Assembly (NCBI GenBank): GCA_007050995.1
Contig: VJOU01000002.1
Coordinates: 9,354-73,353 of the forward strand
Reading direction: 5' to 3'
Length of the DNA: 64,000 nucleotides
From: Glycocaulis profundi
GTDB taxonomy: Bacteria > Pseudomonadota > Alphaproteobacteria > Caulobacterales > Maricaulaceae
Of the stretch, positions 52,368 to 62,759 are shown piece after piece. Numbering within the stretch: the stretch's first letter is position 1; each line of letters begins with the position of its first letter. The notes under the pieces are model-generated. The model had not been told where the DNA came from, ran no database searches, and worked only from the letters and a program-made list of their open reading frames with translations. Both the position numbers and the translations under genes were made by a program.

Positions 52368-52670
52368 GTCGGCCGCCCTCCTCGCTGAAGGGCAGACGGG
52401 GAGCGTGGGCGTCAAGCCCGAGGCGTCAACCCGTCAACCATCTGAAAAACCTGTGTGTCTGGCGAACTATCGCGCTCAGCCGCCCCGTTTACGCTTTTGG
52501 GCCAGGGAGGACCCGCTCGCGAGCGGTCGCCCGGCCTCGCGGCGGCGGCGCAAGTGACTGATTTTGCTGAGATTTCGGCAACGAAAAGCCCGGCGCGTTT
52601 CCGGGCCGGGCTTCGCGAGGCGCACCATCGCCTCATGACGAAAAGGGGTACGCGCAAATGGGTATTTGCG
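52368..52670. other. Intergenic region upstream of terminase; candidate cos/late promoter
   Basis: 303 bp without a gene. On the minus strand TTGACG occurs three times within 28 bp (52410-52415, 52424-52429 and 52432-52437 on the plus strand as CGTCAA). A perfect 14-bp palindrome CCGCTCGCGAGCGG lies at 52513-52526, and a terminator at 52581-52613. In lambda the cos site adjoins the small-subunit gene, so terminase binding repeats and a nicking dyad are plausible here. Alternatively TTGACG copies are -35 boxes of the late promoter. Confidence 0.4.
52578..52613 (-). terminator. Terminator of the early/replication operon
   Basis: AAGCCCGGC (52586-52594) pairs with GCCGGGCTT (52605-52613); on the minus strand the stem is followed by TTTTCGTT. 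It separates the early operon from the terminase genes. Confidence 0.75.
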
Positions 52671-53321
52671 TCAATAGGCGAGTTGACGGCGAAGCCCCCG
52701 AGCGGCCCCGAGAAAGAGCTGATAGCGCGCTCCGATCACGTATTCCTTGTGAGAAATCGGGCAGATAGCCTTCATGCAGAAATTCTCCAGCGGCTGGTCG
52801 AGGATCACCACCCAGTCCAGCACGGACGCCTGGTCGGGATCGTTCAGCCCCGCCCGCAGCCTTTTCCGCTCCCGCTCCGATTCGGCCGCCCGGCCATAGC
52901 GCCAGCCGATGTCCCCGCCGCCGCCGCCGTCCACGCGGATGCGCTCGGGGTCCACGGCGGCCAGGCCGACGCGGGTTTCCATCCACAGGCCGTGATAGTG
53001 GGCCAGCGCCGCCAGCTCGCCACGTTCGAGGATGGCGGCCCGGCGGCGGCTGGGCACGGCCATGTCCCCGATCTGCCGGGTGGGGGCCAGCGCCCGCAGG
53101 TGCTTGCCATCCCGGATCAGGCCGCGGGCCAGCGCCTGCCACGGGTCCATGTCCGCGGTGTCCGGCCTGCGGGCCAGATCCTTGCGCACCACCTTGAGCG
53201 CGTCCCGCCGCGCCCGCGCCGCCTCGGCCTCGGTCGCGTCGGCGGGCCGGGCCTTCTCCGCCCGCTGGGCCTGCGCCGCCTCCCGGCTCGCCTGCCGCCT
53301 GTCCTCGCTCCACGCCGTCAT
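52671..53321 (-). CDS. Hypothetical protein, end of early operon
   Basis: A 216-aa protein. The first 60 residues are a charged helix rich in Ala/Arg/Glu; the centre has WQALARGLIRDGKHLRAL and GELAALAHYHGLWMETRVG. The C-terminal third (DQASVLDWVVILDQPLENFC ... IGARYQLFLGAARGL) resembles the late-gene activator-like tail proteins seen before terminases, but I cannot name a family. Start overlaps the stop of the initiator-like gene (ATGA). Confidence 0.6.
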   Translation of the reverse strand: MTAWSEDRRQASREAAQAQRAEKARPADATEAEAARARRDALKVVRKDLARRPDTADMDPWQALARGLIRDGKHLRALAPTRQIGDMAVPSRRRAAILERGELAALAHYHGLWMETRVGLAAVDPERIRVDGGGGGDIGWRYGRAAESERERKRLRAGLNDPDQASVLDWVVILDQPLENFCMKAICPISHKEYVIGARYQLFLGAARGLRRQLAY

Positions 53322-54310
53322 CGCCGCACCTCGCATTGCTCGTGTTCGGCGCGGATCGTCTCCACGCCCAGTTCCGTCAGCAGCCCGCCGAACCGCTCCC
53401 ACAGGCCCCAGGCCGTGGACCGCGTCGGCGCGATCAGCCGCCCGTCCGCCACCCGGCAGCGGACGAAGTGATCCCGCCACGCGTCCGGTCCGGCCCGCGC
53501 CTTGATGAAATCCCGGAACCGCTCCGGGGTCAGGGACGGCTCAGGCGCGCCATCGCCTGCGCCCCCGTCCGCCCTCGCCGAGCCCTCGCGGACGTCGCCG
53601 CCGCCATCGGCCTCTGCGCTCTGGCGAACGCCGTTCGCGCCATCGCCATGCCCCTCGCCCCCGTCCTCGCCGGAACGGCCAGGGCCGGACGCGCAGCGCC
53701 CGTCAGGGTCTGCGCAGGCCGGACGGCCGGGCTCGCCGCCGGATAAGGGGGAAGGGGGTTTATCGTTAGAATCAGTCGTTACTGCTGTCGCCGCAGCGCG
53801 GACACCCGGTGTCCGCGAGCTGGCGGACTCCCCGGTGTCCGCGTTTGAAGACACCATGGTGTCCGCGTTCGCGGACTCCCCCGGTGTCCGCGTTTGCGGA
53901 CACCCCTCCCCATCCGGAAGGTGCGCGGTGGAGCCCCAGGACCGCTTCTTAAGCGTCTGTCGCTGCGCCCGGAATTCGCTCAGCGTGATGGCGGGCGGCG
54001 TCCCCGGCTCGCGTTCGCCCTGATAGTCGGTCAGCACCTTGTAGCGGCATGGCTTGTCATCGCCCGCCTCACGGTCGACCAGCACCCAGCCGAGCCATTC
54101 CAGCACCGCCACGGCGTCATTCACCCGCTGCCTGCGGAAGCCGCAGCGCTTGGCCAGCACCTCCTGCTTGGTCCCTCTGGGCGTCCAGCCGCGCTTGTCC
54201 GTGAACGAGCCGATGGCGTTCAGGATGCGCAGGTCTGAATCCTTCATCAGCCCGGCGATCACGTCCTCGATCGCGCCGGCGGGGATGATGGAATAGCGCG
54301 GACCGCTCAT
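53318..54310 (-). CDS. Replication initiator-like winged-helix protein
   Basis: A 330-aa protein. The N-terminal about 95 residues form a winged helix (LMKDSDLRILNAIGSF, TKQEVLAKRCGFRRQRVNDAV, LEWLGWVLVDREA), as in phage replication proteins. A low-complexity linker (residues 130-255) is encoded by the iteron DNA, and the C-terminal domain (ERFRDFIKARAGPDAWRDHF) is short and folded. Organisation resembles lambda gpO: DNA-binding N-terminus, iterons inside the gene, C-terminus for helicase recruitment. Confidence 0.7.
   Translation of the reverse strand: MSGPRYSIIPAGAIEDVIAGLMKDSDLRILNAIGSFTDKRGWTPRGTKQEVLAKRCGFRRQRVNDAVAVLEWLGWVLVDREAGDDKPCRYKVLTDYQGEREPGTPPAITLSEFRAQRQTLKKRSWGSTAHLPDGEGCPQTRTPGESANADTMVSSNADTGESASSRTPGVRAAATAVTTDSNDKPPSPLSGGEPGRPACADPDGRCASGPGRSGEDGGEGHGDGANGVRQSAEADGGGDVREGSARADGGAGDGAPEPSLTPERFRDFIKARAGPDAWRDHFVRCRVADGRLIAPTRSTAWGLWERFGGLLTELGVETIRAEHEQCEVRR
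53624..53638 (-). repeat. Prophage motif, copy 8 (reversed)
   Basis: GCGAACGCCGTTCGC on the plus strand, that is the same motif read on the minus strand. Inside the initiator-like gene, about 170 bp from the iterons; first copy with reversed polarity. Confidence 0.85.
53797..53904. repeat. Iteron array, candidate replication origin
   Basis: GGTGTCCGCG occurs at 53808, 53834, 53858 and 53883 (spacing 26, 24, 25 bp). Most copies are the right half of a dyad: 10-bp arms around one base at 53797-53817, GACACCATGGTGTC at 53850-53863, and 9-bp arms with a GTTT loop at 53883-53904. An AT-richer stretch (53758-53790) adjoins. Such an array in an initiator gene is the lambda origin layout. Confidence 0.7.
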
Positions 54311-54429: not shown

Positions 54430-54717
54430 ATGGACGACACGCCCGGCGAAGCCGTTGAAGAATGCCGCAGGGCCCTCGAAACCCTGCTGTTCCACGGGGC
54501 CGACATCGCCCAGACCGTCCTCGGCCGGGGCGGTCGTCCCGGCACGATCGTCCTCGCGCTTCACGACGCGGACGATGCCCTCCTCGAGGCCCTCGACGAG
54601 GCCACCAGGAGCGCATGGCGCGACGCCCTCGAAGAGGCGTTGAGCCGCCTTTCCCCGTCGGATCGGAAGATCGCGGAGGCCGATCTGGCGGCGCGGAAGG
54701 CCGAGGGAAACGACTGA
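54430..54717 (+). CDS. Plus-strand small hypothetical protein
   Basis: A 95-aa acidic helical protein (AVEECRRALETLLFHGADIA ... TRSAWRDALEEALSRLSPSD). CAGGAGAAAG precedes the ATG. It runs against the early operon, between two minus-strand genes with no overlap, so it occupies its own transcription unit. It does not carry the CAACCCAGAGG leader of the other plus-strand genes. No family recognised. Confidence 0.6.
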   Translation: MDDTPGEAVEECRRALETLLFHGADIAQTVLGRGGRPGTIVLALHDADDALLEALDEATRSAWRDALEEALSRLSPSDRKIAEADLAARKAEGND

Positions 54718-54722
54718 CGCCA

Positions 54723-55067
54723 TCACCCCCTCCCCGCCAGCTCGGCCCGCCAGCGCGCGAACTCGCGCACGCCGTCCCAGGCCTTCACCTGCCGCTCATA
54801 GACGGGCATCAGGTCGGGGACCGGCCTGCCCTCGGCATCGAGCACGGGCCGCCCGTCCGCGGTCCTCAGGGGCCGTCGCTGGGGCTCGCCGATGAACGTC
54901 ACGCAGCCATAAGGATTGATGCCACGCCGGATCAGGGCGGCGTCCGTCTCCAGCACGGCGGCGTCCACGGCCTGCAGCCAGCTTTCGCCCAGGCTGTTGC
55001 GGGTCACCGTGAAGGTCCGCACGGCGGCGGGGATGTCGGGAGCCGGAGCCCAGTCAGGGGCCTTCAT
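54723..55067 (-). CDS. Hypothetical early protein
   Basis: A 114-aa protein (VRTFTVTRNSLGESWLQAVD ... INPYGCVTFIGEPQRRPL). Start overlaps the helicase stop by 4 bp. The GCVTFIGEP segment is compatible with a small single-strand binding or regulatory protein, but no family is recognised. Confidence 0.55.
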   Translation of the reverse strand: MKAPDWAPAPDIPAAVRTFTVTRNSLGESWLQAVDAAVLETDAALIRRGINPYGCVTFIGEPQRRPLRTADGRPVLDAEGRPVPDLMPVYERQVKAWDGVREFARWRAELAGRG

Positions 55068-56857
55068 GACACCCCTCCCGGCCCCTCGGGCCGCGTCATC
55101 GCGATCACGTTGGAGGGCCGGTTCAGATAGCTGTCCACCAGCGCCTGGACGCGGCTGCCGTCATCGACCGCCACCGCGTGCGCGCCCAGCCCGGGATCGA
55201 GGATCGCGCTCTGCTCGGCCGATTTCAGGCCGTTGACCTCCATCATGGGCGGGTCGGAGCCGTCCGTGGCGACGGGGAAGAAGGCGGCCACGTGGTCGGC
55301 GATCTGGCCTTCCCGGCCCAGCCGCCCGATGAACTGCTTGTGGGTGGCGGGGCTCCAGTCCAGCTCGCCGATGACGGCGGTGTTGGACGCCGCCTGCAGG
55401 CCGTCCAGCCCCTTGCCGGACCGCAGGCTCATGAACATCGCGTCCACCTCGCCCGCGATGAACGCGGCGGCGGCCTCCGCCTTCCGTTTCGGCGTCTCGG
55501 TCCCGGTGTAGAGGCGGCAGCGGCGGTGGCTCAGATGCGCGCGCCAGATGTCATAGACATCCCGGTGCCAGCCCGCGACCAGCACCGGCCCGCGCGTCTC
55601 GATCAGCATGTCGATGAACCGCGCCACGAAGGGGGCCTTGGCCACGCCGGTCGCGTGCCGCACCCGCAGGTCCAGCTCCCGCACCGCCTGCCCGCGCTCG
55701 TGGAAGGCGCCGCTGCGCGCGGTCTCGGCCAGCGCGACGGCGACGTCCGCGATGGAGTCCAGCGCCTCCATGTCGTGATCCACATGGACCACGCTGACAT
55801 CGATCCGCACGTCCTCGCCCGAGCGGCGGACCAGCGCGAAGCGGTCGGCGAGGAAGTCGCCCAGAGCCCGCGGATCGTCCACATGCCCGTCCGGCGCCCA
55901 TTCGCGCAGGAAGTCCTCACGCCCGCCCAGCACCTCGGGGCGGAGATAGGACATGATCGTCCACATCTCGACGCCCCAGTTGTACATCGGCGTGGCGTCC
56001 AGCCCTATCTTGCGGCGCGCCCGCTCGGCCAGCTCCCAGCAGGCCCGGCCCTTCACCGTGCTCCGCCCGTGCCGCAGCTCGCTGACCTCGTCGAAGCAGA
56101 CCAGCCCGACATCCATCTCGGTCAGGACGTCGACCCACCCCGCCACGTTCGAGTAGCGGAAGACGTAGACATCCGCCTCAGGCAGGTCGTAGGGCGTCGT
56201 CACGCCGATCTCGTGGGCCCGCAACGTGGTGAAACGCTCCGTGACGGTCACCCACTGCCCCGACAGGTGGGGCGGCGCGACCACGATCAGGGGCAGATTG
56301 CCCTCGGTCAGGGCCGCGGCCAGCGTGGTGTAGGTCTTCCCCGCGCCGACCTTGTCCGCGATCAGCAGGCCGTCGAACCGGTTCAGAATCTCGACCGCCT
56401 GCGCCTGGAAGGGGCGCACGGCCTGCCCCGGCTGCAGCCCGGCGAAGTCCGGCGGCGTCCAGTCCGGCGCGAACACCCGGCCCAGCTCCGCCCGCACCCG
56501 CGCTACGCTGTCCCGGCCCGCGATCAGCTCGCTCTCGACGCTCAGCGAGCAGTCGAACGGATAGCGCTGGCGGAACCACAGCAGGTCCGCGCAGATCTCG
56601 GGCCCGGCGTCGAACCGGAACGGGCCGGTCGAAGCCTTGTCGATATGGGGGAAGATCGCCTTCAGCTTGATCTTCACATGCGCCGGCGCGCCGTCCAGCA
56701 CGAACCCGCCCTCGACCCGCTCCAGCCGCCCATAGCAGACCCGCCGCGCGCCAGCAGTATCGGGATCGGACCCGTCCGGGTCCGCAAGCGCGACCGCGCG
56801 CCCGGCCTCGTGGCCGGAACCGCAGGCCGGAGGCCGAGGACCAGAAGACTCCGTCAC
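55064..56857 (-). CDS. SNF2-type DEAD/DEAH helicase
   Basis: A 597-aa superfamily 2 ATPase. Motif I is IADKVGAGKTYT (Lys174), motif II CFDEVSEL, motif III LDATPMYN, and motif VI FIGRLGREGQ; the order and spacing fit SNF2/RapA-like phage helicases. It starts with GTG 56857, overlapping the nuclease stop. Residues about 5-34 are encoded by a palindromic element, so the native start of the ancestral protein was probably near residue 38. Likely works in phage replication or recombination with the neighbouring nuclease. Confidence 0.85.
   Translation of the reverse strand: MTESSGPRPPACGSGHEAGRAVALADPDGSDPDTAGARRVCYGRLERVEGGFVLDGAPAHVKIKLKAIFPHIDKASTGPFRFDAGPEICADLLWFRQRYPFDCSLSVESELIAGRDSVARVRAELGRVFAPDWTPPDFAGLQPGQAVRPFQAQAVEILNRFDGLLIADKVGAGKTYTTLAAALTEGNLPLIVVAPPHLSGQWVTVTERFTTLRAHEIGVTTPYDLPEADVYVFRYSNVAGWVDVLTEMDVGLVCFDEVSELRHGRSTVKGRACWELAERARRKIGLDATPMYNWGVEMWTIMSYLRPEVLGGREDFLREWAPDGHVDDPRALGDFLADRFALVRRSGEDVRIDVSVVHVDHDMEALDSIADVAVALAETARSGAFHERGQAVRELDLRVRHATGVAKAPFVARFIDMLIETRGPVLVAGWHRDVYDIWRAHLSHRRCRLYTGTETPKRKAEAAAAFIAGEVDAMFMSLRSGKGLDGLQAASNTAVIGELDWSPATHKQFIGRLGREGQIADHVAAFFPVATDGSDPPMMEVNGLKSAEQSAILDPGLGAHAVAVDDGSRVQALVDSYLNRPSNVIAMTRPEGPGGVS
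56755..56850. repeat. Palindromic element P3 (in coding sequence)
   Basis: Stem B GGACCC/GGGTCC (56768-56783), linker GCAAGCGCGACCGCGCG (56784-56800) and stem C CCGGCC-TCGT-GGCCGG (56802-56817). It encodes an extra N-terminal segment of the SNF2 helicase that includes GRAVALADPD. Confidence 0.65.
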
Positions 56858-57240
56858 ACCCACGCCTCCCCGAGGCTGAATGTCCGCACCGGGCGGCCGT
56901 CGATGTCGGGCGGCATGGCGATGGCCGTGGCGCTGACCAGCAGCAGCCCGTCCAGTCTCCCGCTGGCCAGATAGCGGATGCACTGGCGGCGCACGGCCAT
57001 CTTCGCGCGGGTCCGCGCCTTGACCTCGATGCCGATTTCGACCCCGCCGCGACAGACCGTCAGATCGATCAGCCCCGACGTGCCGAGCCGGACCTCGCGC
57101 GCGACCGCCAGCTGGGCCGCCGCCAGCACGCCGAACATCTCCGCCTGCAGGCGCTTCTCATCGCTCAGGTCGAACCGCCAGCCGCGCAGGGCCGCCGTCA
57201 CGGCGTTCATCGTCATGATCGCACCCGCCGCCCGGCTCAT
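56854..57240 (-). CDS. PD-(D/E)XK nuclease-like protein
   Basis: A 128-aa protein with a compact restriction-endonuclease-like core: a helix with Glu (DEKRLQAEMFGVL), Asp in TSGLIDLTV and the IEVKA motif (Glu-X-Lys), then helices. VRR-NUC/RecB-type single-domain nucleases look like this. The gene directly precedes the SNF2 helicase with overlap, a pairing known from phages as a helicase-nuclease couple. Confidence 0.75.
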   Translation of the reverse strand: MSRAAGAIMTMNAVTAALRGWRFDLSDEKRLQAEMFGVLAAAQLAVAREVRLGTSGLIDLTVCRGGVEIGIEVKARTRAKMAVRRQCIRYLASGRLDGLLLVSATAIAMPPDIDGRPVRTFSLGEAWV

Positions 57241-57533: not shown

Positions 57534-57988
57534 GACACCCGGCCCCTCAGCCGCGCGTCCGGCATCTCCCGCTCGATCATGGCCAGCGCCGCCGTCCGGG
57601 CCATGCCCGCGGCGGTCAGGCGGTCGAGCCGTTCGAGGGCGCGCTCCAGCGCGGGGCTGCCCTCAGGCGCGGGCGGATCAGCCTCCCGTGACCGGATGAA
57701 GCGATTGCCCGCCATCGAGCGGCAGCTCTCGGAGGTCCGGCCGAGAATGTCCCCTATGTCCGCATAGGTGAGGCCCTCGGCGCGCAGCGCCTCCAGACGG
57801 GCGATCTCATCATCCGTCCATGTGCTGCGCGGCTCCTGGGTGGTCAGCCCCAGCTTGCTCAGCTTCGCGCTGACCGCGCCTTTGGGGCGGTCCAGCTCCC
57901 TCGCGCAGGCGCTCACGCTCAGACCCTGCGCGACCCGCAGCCGCCGCAGGCGGTCCTCTTCGGCTTTCGACCAGCGTCCCGCCTTCAT
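57527..57988 (-). CDS. Tandem helix-turn-helix (Myb/GcrA-like) protein
   Basis: A 153-aa protein with two similar DNA-binding repeats: residues 5-50 (WSKAEEDRLRRLR ... ACARELDRPKGAVSAKLSKL) and 58-100 (WTDDEIARLEALRAEG ... DIGDILGRTSESCRS). Both have the spaced Trp/acidic start and helix-turn-helix of SANT/GcrA-type domains. It likely regulates phage genes or resembles host GcrA, a cell-cycle regulator in this class. The C-terminal 50 residues are helical. Confidence 0.68.
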   Translation of the reverse strand: MKAGRWSKAEEDRLRRLRVAQGLSVSACARELDRPKGAVSAKLSKLGLTTQEPRSTWTDDEIARLEALRAEGLTYADIGDILGRTSESCRSMAGNRFIRSREADPPAPEGSPALERALERLDRLTAAGMARTAALAMIEREMPDARLRGRVSC

Positions 57989-58830
57989 GCCGCGCGCTCC
58001 GCGGGGCAGCGGCGCAGCAGGTCCTCGAGCAGAATCGCCGAGGCAGGCCGGTTCTGAAACCGGGCCATCGACCGCGCGGCATCCGACAGCCCCTCCAGAT
58101 CGCAGTCCTGCAGCACGCCCGCGAGGGCCTCGCTCTCCATGTCAGGACGGGCGAGGCCGAGCGCCAGCACGGTGCTGATCTGACGGCCCGCGAGGGCCTG
58201 GGGCCATTCAGGATAGGCCGCCCTGAGCGCCTCCAGCGTCCGGCGCACCGGGCGTTCGCCGTGCTGCTTGAGGGCGTCCCGGATCGTCTTGACCGCCATG
58301 GTCTCGTCGGGGCGTATGCGCTTCTGGGATTTGGGGTAGCGCGGCAGCATCACTCCCGCTGCTTCACACACGCGGGCGGTGAAAAGCGCGTCCGGATCCT
58401 CCGCCGCCACTCCGGCGTGATGCAGCTGCAGCGGAGTGACCTGCGTGACATCGGCATTGATCGCCATGAAGGCGCGGGCCTGCCCCTTCAGATCCAGCCG
58501 GTGGAGATAGGCGGGCACCGCTTCCACGCGGGGATGGAGGGTCGCAGCCATCGCCCTGTGCTGACCGTCCAGGATCGCGAACCTATCCTTCAGGCCGTCA
58601 GCGGGCGCGATCATGAGCGGATCGAACCGCGCCCACGAGAAATGCTCGGTGATGGTGCGGACGTTCTTCCTGCCCGACGCGTTCACCAGCCGCTGATAGC
58701 GCGTATCCACGACCAGCCGTTCCAGAGGGACCCAGACCAGCTCGCCCCGGTCGCCGGCGTCATCGCTCGGATCGATCGGCGTCTTGAACTCAGGCGGCGC
58801 AAGCGGCCGGAACACTTCGCCCGGCATCAC
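57985..58830 (-). CDS. ParB-like nuclease-domain protein
   Basis: A 281-aa protein with a ParB/sulfiredoxin-like N-terminal domain: VPLERLVVDTRYQRL, FDPLMIAPADGLKDRFAILD and DGQHRAMAA (the ParB GERR-like box replaced by GQHR). Phage homologues of this sort are annotated as DUF6551/ParB-like. It might bind or regulate DNA, and is a candidate reader of the prophage-wide palindrome. Start GTG 58830 or ATG 58827 overlaps the previous stop. Confidence 0.75.
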   Translation of the reverse strand: MMPGEVFRPLAPPEFKTPIDPSDDAGDRGELVWVPLERLVVDTRYQRLVNASGRKNVRTITEHFSWARFDPLMIAPADGLKDRFAILDGQHRAMAATLHPRVEAVPAYLHRLDLKGQARAFMAINADVTQVTPLQLHHAGVAAEDPDALFTARVCEAAGVMLPRYPKSQKRIRPDETMAVKTIRDALKQHGERPVRRTLEALRAAYPEWPQALAGRQISTVLALGLARPDMESEALAGVLQDCDLEGLSDAARSMARFQNRPASAILLEDLLRRCPAERAA

Positions 58831-61850: not shown

Positions 61851-62053
61851 GGCCGCGCCTCCGGCTGAGGCGCGAGAAAATCGTTGGCCGTGACGGCCCC
61901 GCCAGTCGCTTCATTGATCTTTGTGAGTACCTCGCGGCGCGGAATGCGATCGCCTTCCACGTATCGGTGGACGGCCTGGCGGCTCACGCCGATCCGGTCA
62001 GCGAAAGCCGACGGGGTCACGTTCGAAGTCTTCAGCCAATCGGATAGGGTCAT
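61847..62053 (-). CDS. Cro-like repressor
   Basis: A 68-aa XRE-family protein: helix-turn-helix at about residues 12-35 (SAFADRIGVSRQAVHRYVEG), no oligomerisation or protease domain. It is divergent from the CI-like gene with three operators between, exactly the Cro position, and heads the early operon. Confidence 0.82.
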   Translation of the reverse strand: MTLSDWLKTSNVTPSAFADRIGVSRQAVHRYVEGDRIPRREVLTKINEATGGAVTANDFLAPQPEARP

Positions 62054-62064
62054 GGCCGGACTAT

Positions 62065-62081
62065 GTCACCAATTTGGTGAC
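62065..62081. promoter_or_regulatory. Operator O1 of the CI/Cro switch
   Basis: GTCACCAA-T-TTGGTGAC, a perfect 8-bp inverted repeat around one base, 12 bp from the cro start. Confidence 0.8.
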
Positions 62082-62096
62082 CTCGCAATATGCCCC

Positions 62097-62113
62097 GTCA
62101 CCAAATTGGAGCC
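62097..62113. promoter_or_regulatory. Operator O2 of the CI/Cro switch
   Basis: GTCACCAAATTGGAGCC: left half as in O1, right half degenerate, so probably a weaker site. Centre lies 32 bp from O1. Confidence 0.7.
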
Positions 62114-62120
62114 TCGCGCG

Positions 62121-62137
62121 GCCACCAATATGGTGAC
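62121..62137. promoter_or_regulatory. Operator O3 of the CI/Cro switch
   Basis: GCCACCAATATGGTGAC, one mismatch in the left arm. Centre 24 bp from O2; it lies 14 bp before the CI start codon. Confidence 0.75.
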
Positions 62138-62150
62138 ACCTTCCAACCCT

Positions 62151-62759
62151 ATGAGCGACAAGGGAAAATGGCCGAACGGCCTCGCGGCGCTTATGAACGC
62201 TCGCGGTGACGGGCCGACGGCGCTCGCGCGTGCGCTCTCAACACACAAGCAAAACGTGGATCGCTGGCGGAACGCAGAGCGGAAAATTCCGCTCGAGTAC
62301 GCTGAAAAGATCGCCGCCCACTACGATGTCCCGGTCACCGAGGTGTTGTTCCTTCACGGTGGCGGAAACACCTCAGCCCCCCTGATCAGCTGGATCAGCG
62401 CAGGCCGGCTGGCCCAGGTCGACCATGTCGAGGACATGGACACCGCCCGCCGGGTCCAGGCCGCCGACCTCGATCCCGGCGGCGACTGGATCGCGCTGCG
62501 GGTCGAAGGCGACTCCATGGACCGCATCAGCCCGCCCGACAGCATCATCTTCGTGAACCGCAGCGACCGCACCCTGGTGCCCAACGCCTGCTATGTGATC
62601 GCCGACGAGAGCGGCGGGGCCTCCTACAAGCGCTTCCGCCCCAACCCGGACCGGTGGGAGCCCGTCTCGGTCAACCCAGACCACGAGCCCTTCTTCATCC
62701 AGCCCGGCGCCGGTCCGCGCATCATCGGCCGCGTCCGCAAAACCGTGCTGGATCTGTGA
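62151..62759 (+). CDS. CI-like repressor with S24 peptidase domain
   Basis: A 202-aa repressor. Residues 10-60 hold the helix-turn-helix (ALARALSTHKQNVDRWRN); residues 85-195 form the LexA-like S24 domain with catalytic Ser122 (EGDSMD) and Lys160 (GASYKRF). The autocleavage bond is probably Ala84-Gly85 (ISAGRLAQ). DNA damage would trigger RecA-stimulated self-cleavage and induction. No ribosome site precedes ATG 62151, and operator O3 ends 13 bp upstream, so the transcript may be leaderless like lambda cI. Confidence 0.9.
   Translation: MSDKGKWPNGLAALMNARGDGPTALARALSTHKQNVDRWRNAERKIPLEYAEKIAAHYDVPVTEVLFLHGGGNTSAPLISWISAGRLAQVDHVEDMDTARRVQAADLDPGGDWIALRVEGDSMDRISPPDSIIFVNRSDRTLVPNACYVIADESGGASYKRFRPNPDRWEPVSVNPDHEPFFIQPGAGPRIIGRVRKTVLDL

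Follow-up and report, generated by a model that had tools for sequence, protein, structure and literature searches.

The window analysed here, 64,000 nucleotides of the Glycocaulis profundi genome (contig VJOU01000002.1, positions 9,354 to 73,353), carries, in a predicted prophage, a gene whose product weakly matches a family of phage replication initiators (Table 1). An identical locus is present in a prophage of 45,580 bp predicted in IMG/VR. Upstream of the initiator gene and on the same strand lie genes for an SNF2-type helicase, a ParB-like protein, a small DnaG-type zinc-ribbon protein and a CII-like activator. The CI-like and CII-like genes sit on the same side of the initiator gene and the terminase genes are located downstream of it, an order that is lambda-like. 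An open reading frame for 95 aa with a plausible ribosome site (AGGAG) runs divergently on the plus strand (54430-54717), about 120 bp from the initiator gene and within the minus-strand early region. For the gene directly downstream we also considered the frame 52633-53313, which we discarded since the frame listed in Table 1 is the one conserved in two relatives (L022 and L024). The product of this downstream gene has no PHROG match.

Table 1. Features of the initiator locus and its surroundings (positions within the window)
Feature	Position	Strand	Remarks
Initiator gene, 330 aa	53318..54310	-	PHROG phrog_270 'replication initiation protein', E = 0.0044
Winged-helix domain, residues 6-101	54008..54295	-	AlphaFold2, pLDDT mostly >88; confident in the model over residues ~11-126
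Disordered linker, residues 129-254	53549..53926	-	pLDDT mostly <50; holds array and AT tract
Iteron dyad 1 (GTGTCCGC / GCGGACAC)	53884..53903	-	
Iteron dyad 2	53859..53878	-	
Iteron dyad 3	53835..53854	-	
Iteron dyad 4	53809..53830	-	
Iteron dyad 5, degenerate	53787..53805	-	
AT-rich stretch, candidate unwinding element	53752..53781	-	30 bp after array
TAACGA box 1, second element	53776..53781	-	
TAACGA box 2, second element	53763..53768	-	13 bp from box 1
C-terminal domain, residues 262-330, homologue of DnaA domain I	53321..53527	-	
Gene directly downstream of initiator	52671-53315	-	Frame conserved in L022 and L024; motifs LRALAPT, GGG.GD
SNF2-type helicase	55064-56983	-	phrog_62, Pfam SNF2-rel_dom; <1 kb upstream of initiator gene
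ParB-like gene	57985-58830	-	phrog_1033; 4 kb from array
Zinc-ribbon protein, 124 aa	59351-59725	-	Match limited to zinc-ribbon part of DnaG-type primases
CI-like repressor	61884-62759		Divergent from minus-strand early genes

The part of the gene that codes for approximately residues 136-177 contains a regular array of repeats. The 10-mer GGTGTCCGCG occurs exactly on the plus strand at 53808, 53834, 53858 and 53883 (spacing 26, 24 and 25) and exactly once on the minus strand (53797-53806), and the reverse arms at 53870 and 53895 carry one mismatch each. Read along the gene, these copies form five dyads of the half-site GTGTCCGC between 53787 and 53903, with arms of 8 bp around 3-6 bp and left arms spaced by 25, 24, 24 and 25 bp. 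The fifth dyad is degenerate; it is overlapped by CTGTCGCC on the plus strand (53785-53792), which is the half-site of two relatives (L011 and L020). A preliminary description of this DNA had counted four repeats spaced 24-26 bp, most of them forming dyads, in the linker-coding part of the gene. The four copies, the dyads and the position in the linker are borne out, but the array consists of five dyads rather than of four single repeats. On its own the 10-mer is common enough, with 71 exact matches across the 3.63-Mb genome versus 14 for the reversed pattern; the unusual feature is the clustering. The genomic sites other than the array are scattered.

To score such arrays, we chained dyads made of two 8-bp arms with a gap of 1-10, allowing a spacing of 19-27 between dyads, and compared the chains with shuffles that preserve the protein and its codon usage; a first score that counted dyads was dropped because its null was too permissive, with the value for L024 reached by 10 of 100 shuffles. 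The array scores 24, compared with a mean of 10.7 and a maximum of 18 in 1000 synonymous-codon shuffles, and among 127 one-kb tiles of the window both tiles that hold it score 24, the next best reaching 13. As a positive control, the scanner recovers exactly the four annotated iterons of lambda O, in start position as well as in spacing (20, 24 and 23 bp), with none of 500 shuffles scoring as high. These results bear on the idea that the repeats have no function and arise as a by-product, either of peptide repetition or of GC-rich sequence of low complexity. The encoded linker is disordered and of biased composition, as such a by-product would have it, but the repeat copies occupy all three codon phases, so the array is not a peptide repeat, and the synonymous shuffles fall short of its score. 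We regard a by-product as hardly credible, and the earlier claim that the array does not arise from a protein repeat stands on both counts.

The AlphaFold2 model and its fold matches agree with the winged-helix assignment of the preliminary description, and the recognition helix corresponds to the model helix at residues 60-73. Among the joint best PDB matches of this domain are the N-terminal domains of plasmid initiators (4pql and 4pt7, Z 8.0), tied with unrelated winged-helix proteins; we take both structures to be RepA_N proteins. At the sequence level, neither Pfam nor NCBIfam holds a family above cut-off for the window protein, its best Pfam matches up to E = 1 being MarR_2 and HTH_36, both below cut-off, and a direct search of the phage collection with the window protein gave no match. 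The relatives that carry an array (see below) are more readily classified. Of 42 such proteins, 41 match phrog_270, 'replication initiation protein', at 0.001, the one miss being the window's shortened version, and 40 match phrog_391, 'replication initiation O-like'. In Pfam, HTH_36 is found in 40 of the 42, DnaD_N in 8 and RP-C in 4. The N-terminus of lambda O is a winged-helix domain too, and the profile of the winged-helix domain matches lambda O itself weakly (8.9% probability, E 0.0037).

The C-terminal domain is of a different kind. Modelled alone (pLDDT 89), it shows the element order H-H-E-E-H-E, and its best solved folds are DnaA domain I (2wp0, Z 7.3, rmsd 1.8 over 63; 4tps, Z 7.1), with the helicase loader DciA next at Z 4.2; by Foldseek E-value the same model has no significant match (DnaA domain I, 2.6). 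In BFVD all matches lie at E 0.6 or above; the top hit is a putative replicon initiation protein, and a protein with a DnaA N-terminal domain comes fourth. A profile of four C-termini matches the N-terminus of the host DnaA at 92.7% (E = 4e-7), with a score of 41.3 versus a maximum of 19.2 in 100 shuffles. Pfam DnaA_N does not match the window's C-terminal domain; it is found in one relative (L095, 2.5e-5) and in two further homologues, L085 (5.9e-5) and L102 (4.4e-7), both of which are without a significant array. By sequence profile and by fold, we class the C-terminal domain as homologous to DnaA domain I. C-termini differ between relatives, so that the protein is modular. In the same genus, another helix-turn-helix protein with a DnaA-domain-I-like C-terminus (L015 in genome G010, gene 964-1764) has no dyad array evident by eye in its linker.

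DnaA domain I binds the replicative helicase DnaB. The gene downstream of the initiator, compared together with its two relatives at the sequence level, matches neither lambda P (0.4%) nor a solved loader or structure. Given a C-terminus homologous to DnaA domain I and a downstream gene that is not lambda-P-like, we infer that the C-terminus itself recruits DnaB. No phage helicase loader was recognised, and the loading step is for this reason put forward conditionally. Alternatively, the origin could lie here as proposed while the C-terminal domain binds another host factor or serves dimerisation. Such a division of roles is possible, if on balance doubtful: DnaA domain I also interacts with other proteins, among them SirA and HobA in the structures matched here, and the C-termini vary widely between relatives, whereas the absence of a lambda-P-like gene fits DnaB loading best.

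We searched for homologues at increasing taxonomic distance and found them in 5 of 137 genomes within the family (a count that includes the genome of the window, and loci from Oceanicaulis and Maricaulis records), in 16 of 398 within the order, in 87 of 385 within the class, many being other winged-helix proteins, and in 92 of 398 within the phylum; nine viral contigs carry homologues as well. From the class and phylum searches, loci were taken in at up to 30 each, plus 40 regions, among more matches. Before the scan, 29 loci were dropped (duplicates, pattern-only loci and the C-terminal-only paralogue L015), and of 122 loci with a profile hit, 14 with less than 360 nt from hit start to end were left out, leaving 108. 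A gene passed if none of 60 shuffles scored as high, at least three dyads were present and z exceeded 3.

By this test, 47 of the 108 homologous genes, near-identical ones included, carry an array, mostly each with its own repeat sequence. Broken down by profile score, genes with an array make up 14 of 19 above 90 bits, 2 of 6 at 60-90, 10 of 20 at 45-60, 16 of 34 at 35-45 and 5 of 29 at lower scores, this last group containing, by eye, unrelated regulators. Several of the 61 genes that fail are other regulators by sequence, and three clear homologues (L033, L034 and L074) pass weakly. With two doubtful genes omitted, 40 array genes remain at less than 90% winged-helix identity. The analysis of recognition helix and half-site leaves out L051 and L134, whose arrays lie outside the usual place, and five near-identical genes; the set of 42 array-bearing genes leaves out L051, L134, L022, L100 and L150, and the count of [G/T]AAC boxes additionally L113 and L148. 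Among close relatives, the half-site reads TGTCGCC (L011, L022 and L020), TATCGAC (L012) or TGTGAYC (L014, L025, L024, L031 and L032) in an unchanged layout. The preliminary description would have been refuted by a lack of conservation in relatives that keep the gene; the comparison does not refute it, as the layout is kept although the letters change. A separate case is the minus-strand winged-helix gene L053, in which eight dyads spaced alternately by 22 and 23 bp code for a 15-residue peptide repeat.

Next to the array, on its low-coordinate side, the DNA is 60% AT, compared with 29% for the whole gene, and the AT-richer stretch noted earlier is thereby placed. In the lambda control, the 30 bp after the iterons, on the same side, are 77% AT versus 52% for the O gene. 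The family shows the same asymmetry. In 46 of 47 genes with an array, the 30 bp that follow it exceed the gene in AT content (median 0.60 vs 0.41, Wilcoxon p = 3e-9); for the DNA before the array this holds in 28 of 47, which is not significant. The family order of winged helix, iterons and AT tract is the lambda order.

The fixed side of the AT tract helps in judging whether the array is instead an operator, at which a regulator binds within its own gene and limits its transcription with no role in an origin. Winged-helix proteins are mostly regulators, and the sub-threshold Pfam matches of the window protein point the same way. An operator 400-525 bp inside a gene, however, needs no AT tract fixed on one side, and the DnaA domain I homologue and the PHROG initiator families fit replication better. 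We consider a pure operator unlikely, bearing in mind that binding could serve both functions.

A second element follows the array and is represented in the window by the two TAACGA boxes. In the relatives, [G/T]AAC boxes occur on the coding strand within 70 bp downstream of the array, often one per 12-13 bp. Pairs of such boxes 11-15 bp apart occur in 23 of 40 genes, compared with a mean of 5.8 and a maximum of 13 in 500 synonymous shuffles, and other 70-bp windows of the same 40 genes yield a pair in 0 or 1 gene. The spacing is not a multiple of three in 18 of 33 pairs. We did not use the raw number of GAAC motifs after the array (38 of 47 genes vs 30 expected), since it is partly explained by the encoded peptide, and relied on the spaced pairs alone. 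The AT tract of lambda has no [G/T]AAC element by eye. The boxes may form part of an unwinding element.

We compared synonymous changes in the array with those in the rest of the gene for seven related pairs. Array sites change less in five of them, four with p <0.05: 0 of 30 vs 52 of 314 (pair 1, p 0.013), 0 of 26 vs 114 of 232 (pair 2, p 1.7e-7), 1 of 8 vs 74 of 180 (pair 3, p 0.15), 0 of 19 vs 58 of 203 (pair 4, p 0.0045) and 1 of 17 vs 62 of 191 (pair 5, p 0.025). This constraint is a further argument against a functionless by-product. In the two exceptions the array is not more conserved; in pair 6, 5 of 32 array sites changed vs 24 of 222 in the rest (p 0.38), and in the pair L094/L113 the pattern is reversed, with 4 of 4 vs 19 of 148.

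The reversed pair is instructive. L094 and L113 are two copies of the initiator gene in one genome (G1014). Their sequences are near-identical at both ends, on the 5' side from the common start until shortly ahead of the recognition helix and on the 3' side between the AT tract and the stop. The difference lies mainly in the segment in between, which comprises the recognition helix and everything up to the last dyad, the half-sites being AGATAGCA vs TAGTGAAT. A specificity cassette seems to have moved as a unit, which is what binding of the array by the winged helix predicts. The same observation argues against a partition or incompatibility site (parS or inc-like) with the origin elsewhere. 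A ParB-like gene does lie nearby, 4 kb away, but tens of homologues keep the layout at the same place in the initiator gene, and in L094/L113 the repeat letters change along with the recognition helix; we deem such a site very unlikely.

Across the family, recognition is harder to read. The residue after the arginine in the recognition helix can be paired with the half-site (Q with TGTC, E with TGTG, A or S with TGCC) in most alphaproteobacterial members, but this code fails for L084 and L096, and we do not claim it. In partial Mantel tests over 40 genes, half-site differences follow the recognition helix (r = 0.22, 0 of 5000 permutations as high) to nearly the same degree as the rest of the domain (r = 0.21, 0 of 5000), and recognition can thus not be told apart from shared ancestry.

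Our computations establish the array and its excess over the shuffled sequences, a layout that relatives conserve, constraint on synonymous sites and the C-terminal homology to DnaA domain I. The segment is most probably a theta-type origin of a temperate phage placed inside the coding sequence of its own initiator. In this mechanism, the N-terminal winged-helix domain would bind the five dyads to build a nucleoprotein complex, DNA opening would take place in the AT-rich stretch that holds the TAACGA boxes, and the C-terminal module would recruit the host's DnaB helicase to the exposed strand, a task that lambda divides between the C-terminus of O and P. This prophage of a marine bacterium appears to start its copying from repeats inside its own initiator gene, as lambda does, with repeats of unrelated sequence. 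Strand skew, suggested earlier as a check, is in weak agreement: across the predicted prophage, detrended GC skew has its maximum at 52,805, which is some 1 kb away from the array, but gene direction also alters the skew.

We also offer a broader model, plausible but tentative. Phages and prophages of Pseudomonadota may share a two-part origin. One part would be a specificity cassette, made of the recognition half of the winged helix and the dyad array, that is exchanged or drifts as a unit and lets co-resident prophages escape each other; the other would be a slowly changing melting element shared among them, in which [G/T]AAC boxes recur about every 13 bp along the coding strand and are read in single-stranded form by a common host or phage factor. 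The version in the window would have taken up DnaA domain I and would load DnaB without a loader gene of its own.

For the prophage, these results provide a testable candidate origin. Genes often annotated merely as helix-turn-helix proteins turn into numerous predicted origins, each paired with its initiator. Such pairs of recognition helix and array may serve to work out a DNA-recognition code and to explain the compatibility of prophages in one cell. The results also raise the question of the fewest parts with which a replicative helicase can be loaded, here DnaA domain I on a phage DNA-binding domain. In the open-licence literature, which does not extend to Weigel and Seitz 2006, we found no earlier description of the array, the family-wide pattern or the [G/T]AAC element.

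The closest known arrangement is that of lambda, to which the preliminary description had likened the segment with unrelated sequence. The likeness is upheld in the order of winged helix, array, AT tract and C-terminal domain; the five dyads, the DnaA domain I homologue, the lack of a P-type neighbour and the second element with its 13-bp spacing are additions to that description. As described in PMC7466680 and recovered by the scanner, lambda O also has dyad iterons 20-24 bp apart in mid-gene and an AT-rich tract on the C-terminal side, and by analogy the segment may function like the lambda origin. It differs in having five dyads of unrelated sequence, a protein whose sequence link to O is weak, a C-terminus homologous to DnaA domain I and no P-like gene adjoining. 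Because a P-type neighbour was sought and not found, and because the C-terminus is of another kind, we do not file the locus as a lambda O/P system. DnaA itself shares domain I, which in the window protein sits at the C-terminus; no other DnaA domain is matched in Pfam, and the DNA-binding part is a winged helix.

Plasmid initiators offer further parallels. For the RepA_N type, 4pql and 4pt7 are among the joint best fold matches of the winged-helix domain, level with unrelated winged-helix proteins. PMC5703833 describes a pSK41 rep gene with four Rep boxes at its centre, an origin that encodes the linker, a winged-helix N-terminal domain and a DnaD-like C-terminus that binds DnaG. The window protein resembles pSK41 Rep, so described, in its in-gene repeats and winged-helix N-terminal domain, and differs in lacking a RepA_N match in Pfam and in a C-terminus that is not DnaD-like. 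RepC of the repABC plasmids, according to PMC3155836, is an alphaproteobacterial initiator whose gene contains the origin, located in an AT-rich region, and repC of p42d is without iterons. An origin in the initiator gene, as proposed for the window, is common to both, and 4 of 42 relatives match the RP-C N-terminal domain, which the window protein itself does not.

Among phages, gp26 of Sinorhizobium phage phi2LM21 is described in PMC5537653, the main text of which does not use the word 'iteron', as a replication initiation protein predicted from its helix-turn-helix. It is a homologue of the window protein (L075) with a four-dyad array, another repeat and another C-terminus. For Francisella phage KIRK, a lambda-like origin within a phage gene has been proposed (PMC7924643). 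Compared with the lambda, pSK41 and iteron-free repC examples as these sources present them, the window array would represent an in-gene iteron origin of a different make.
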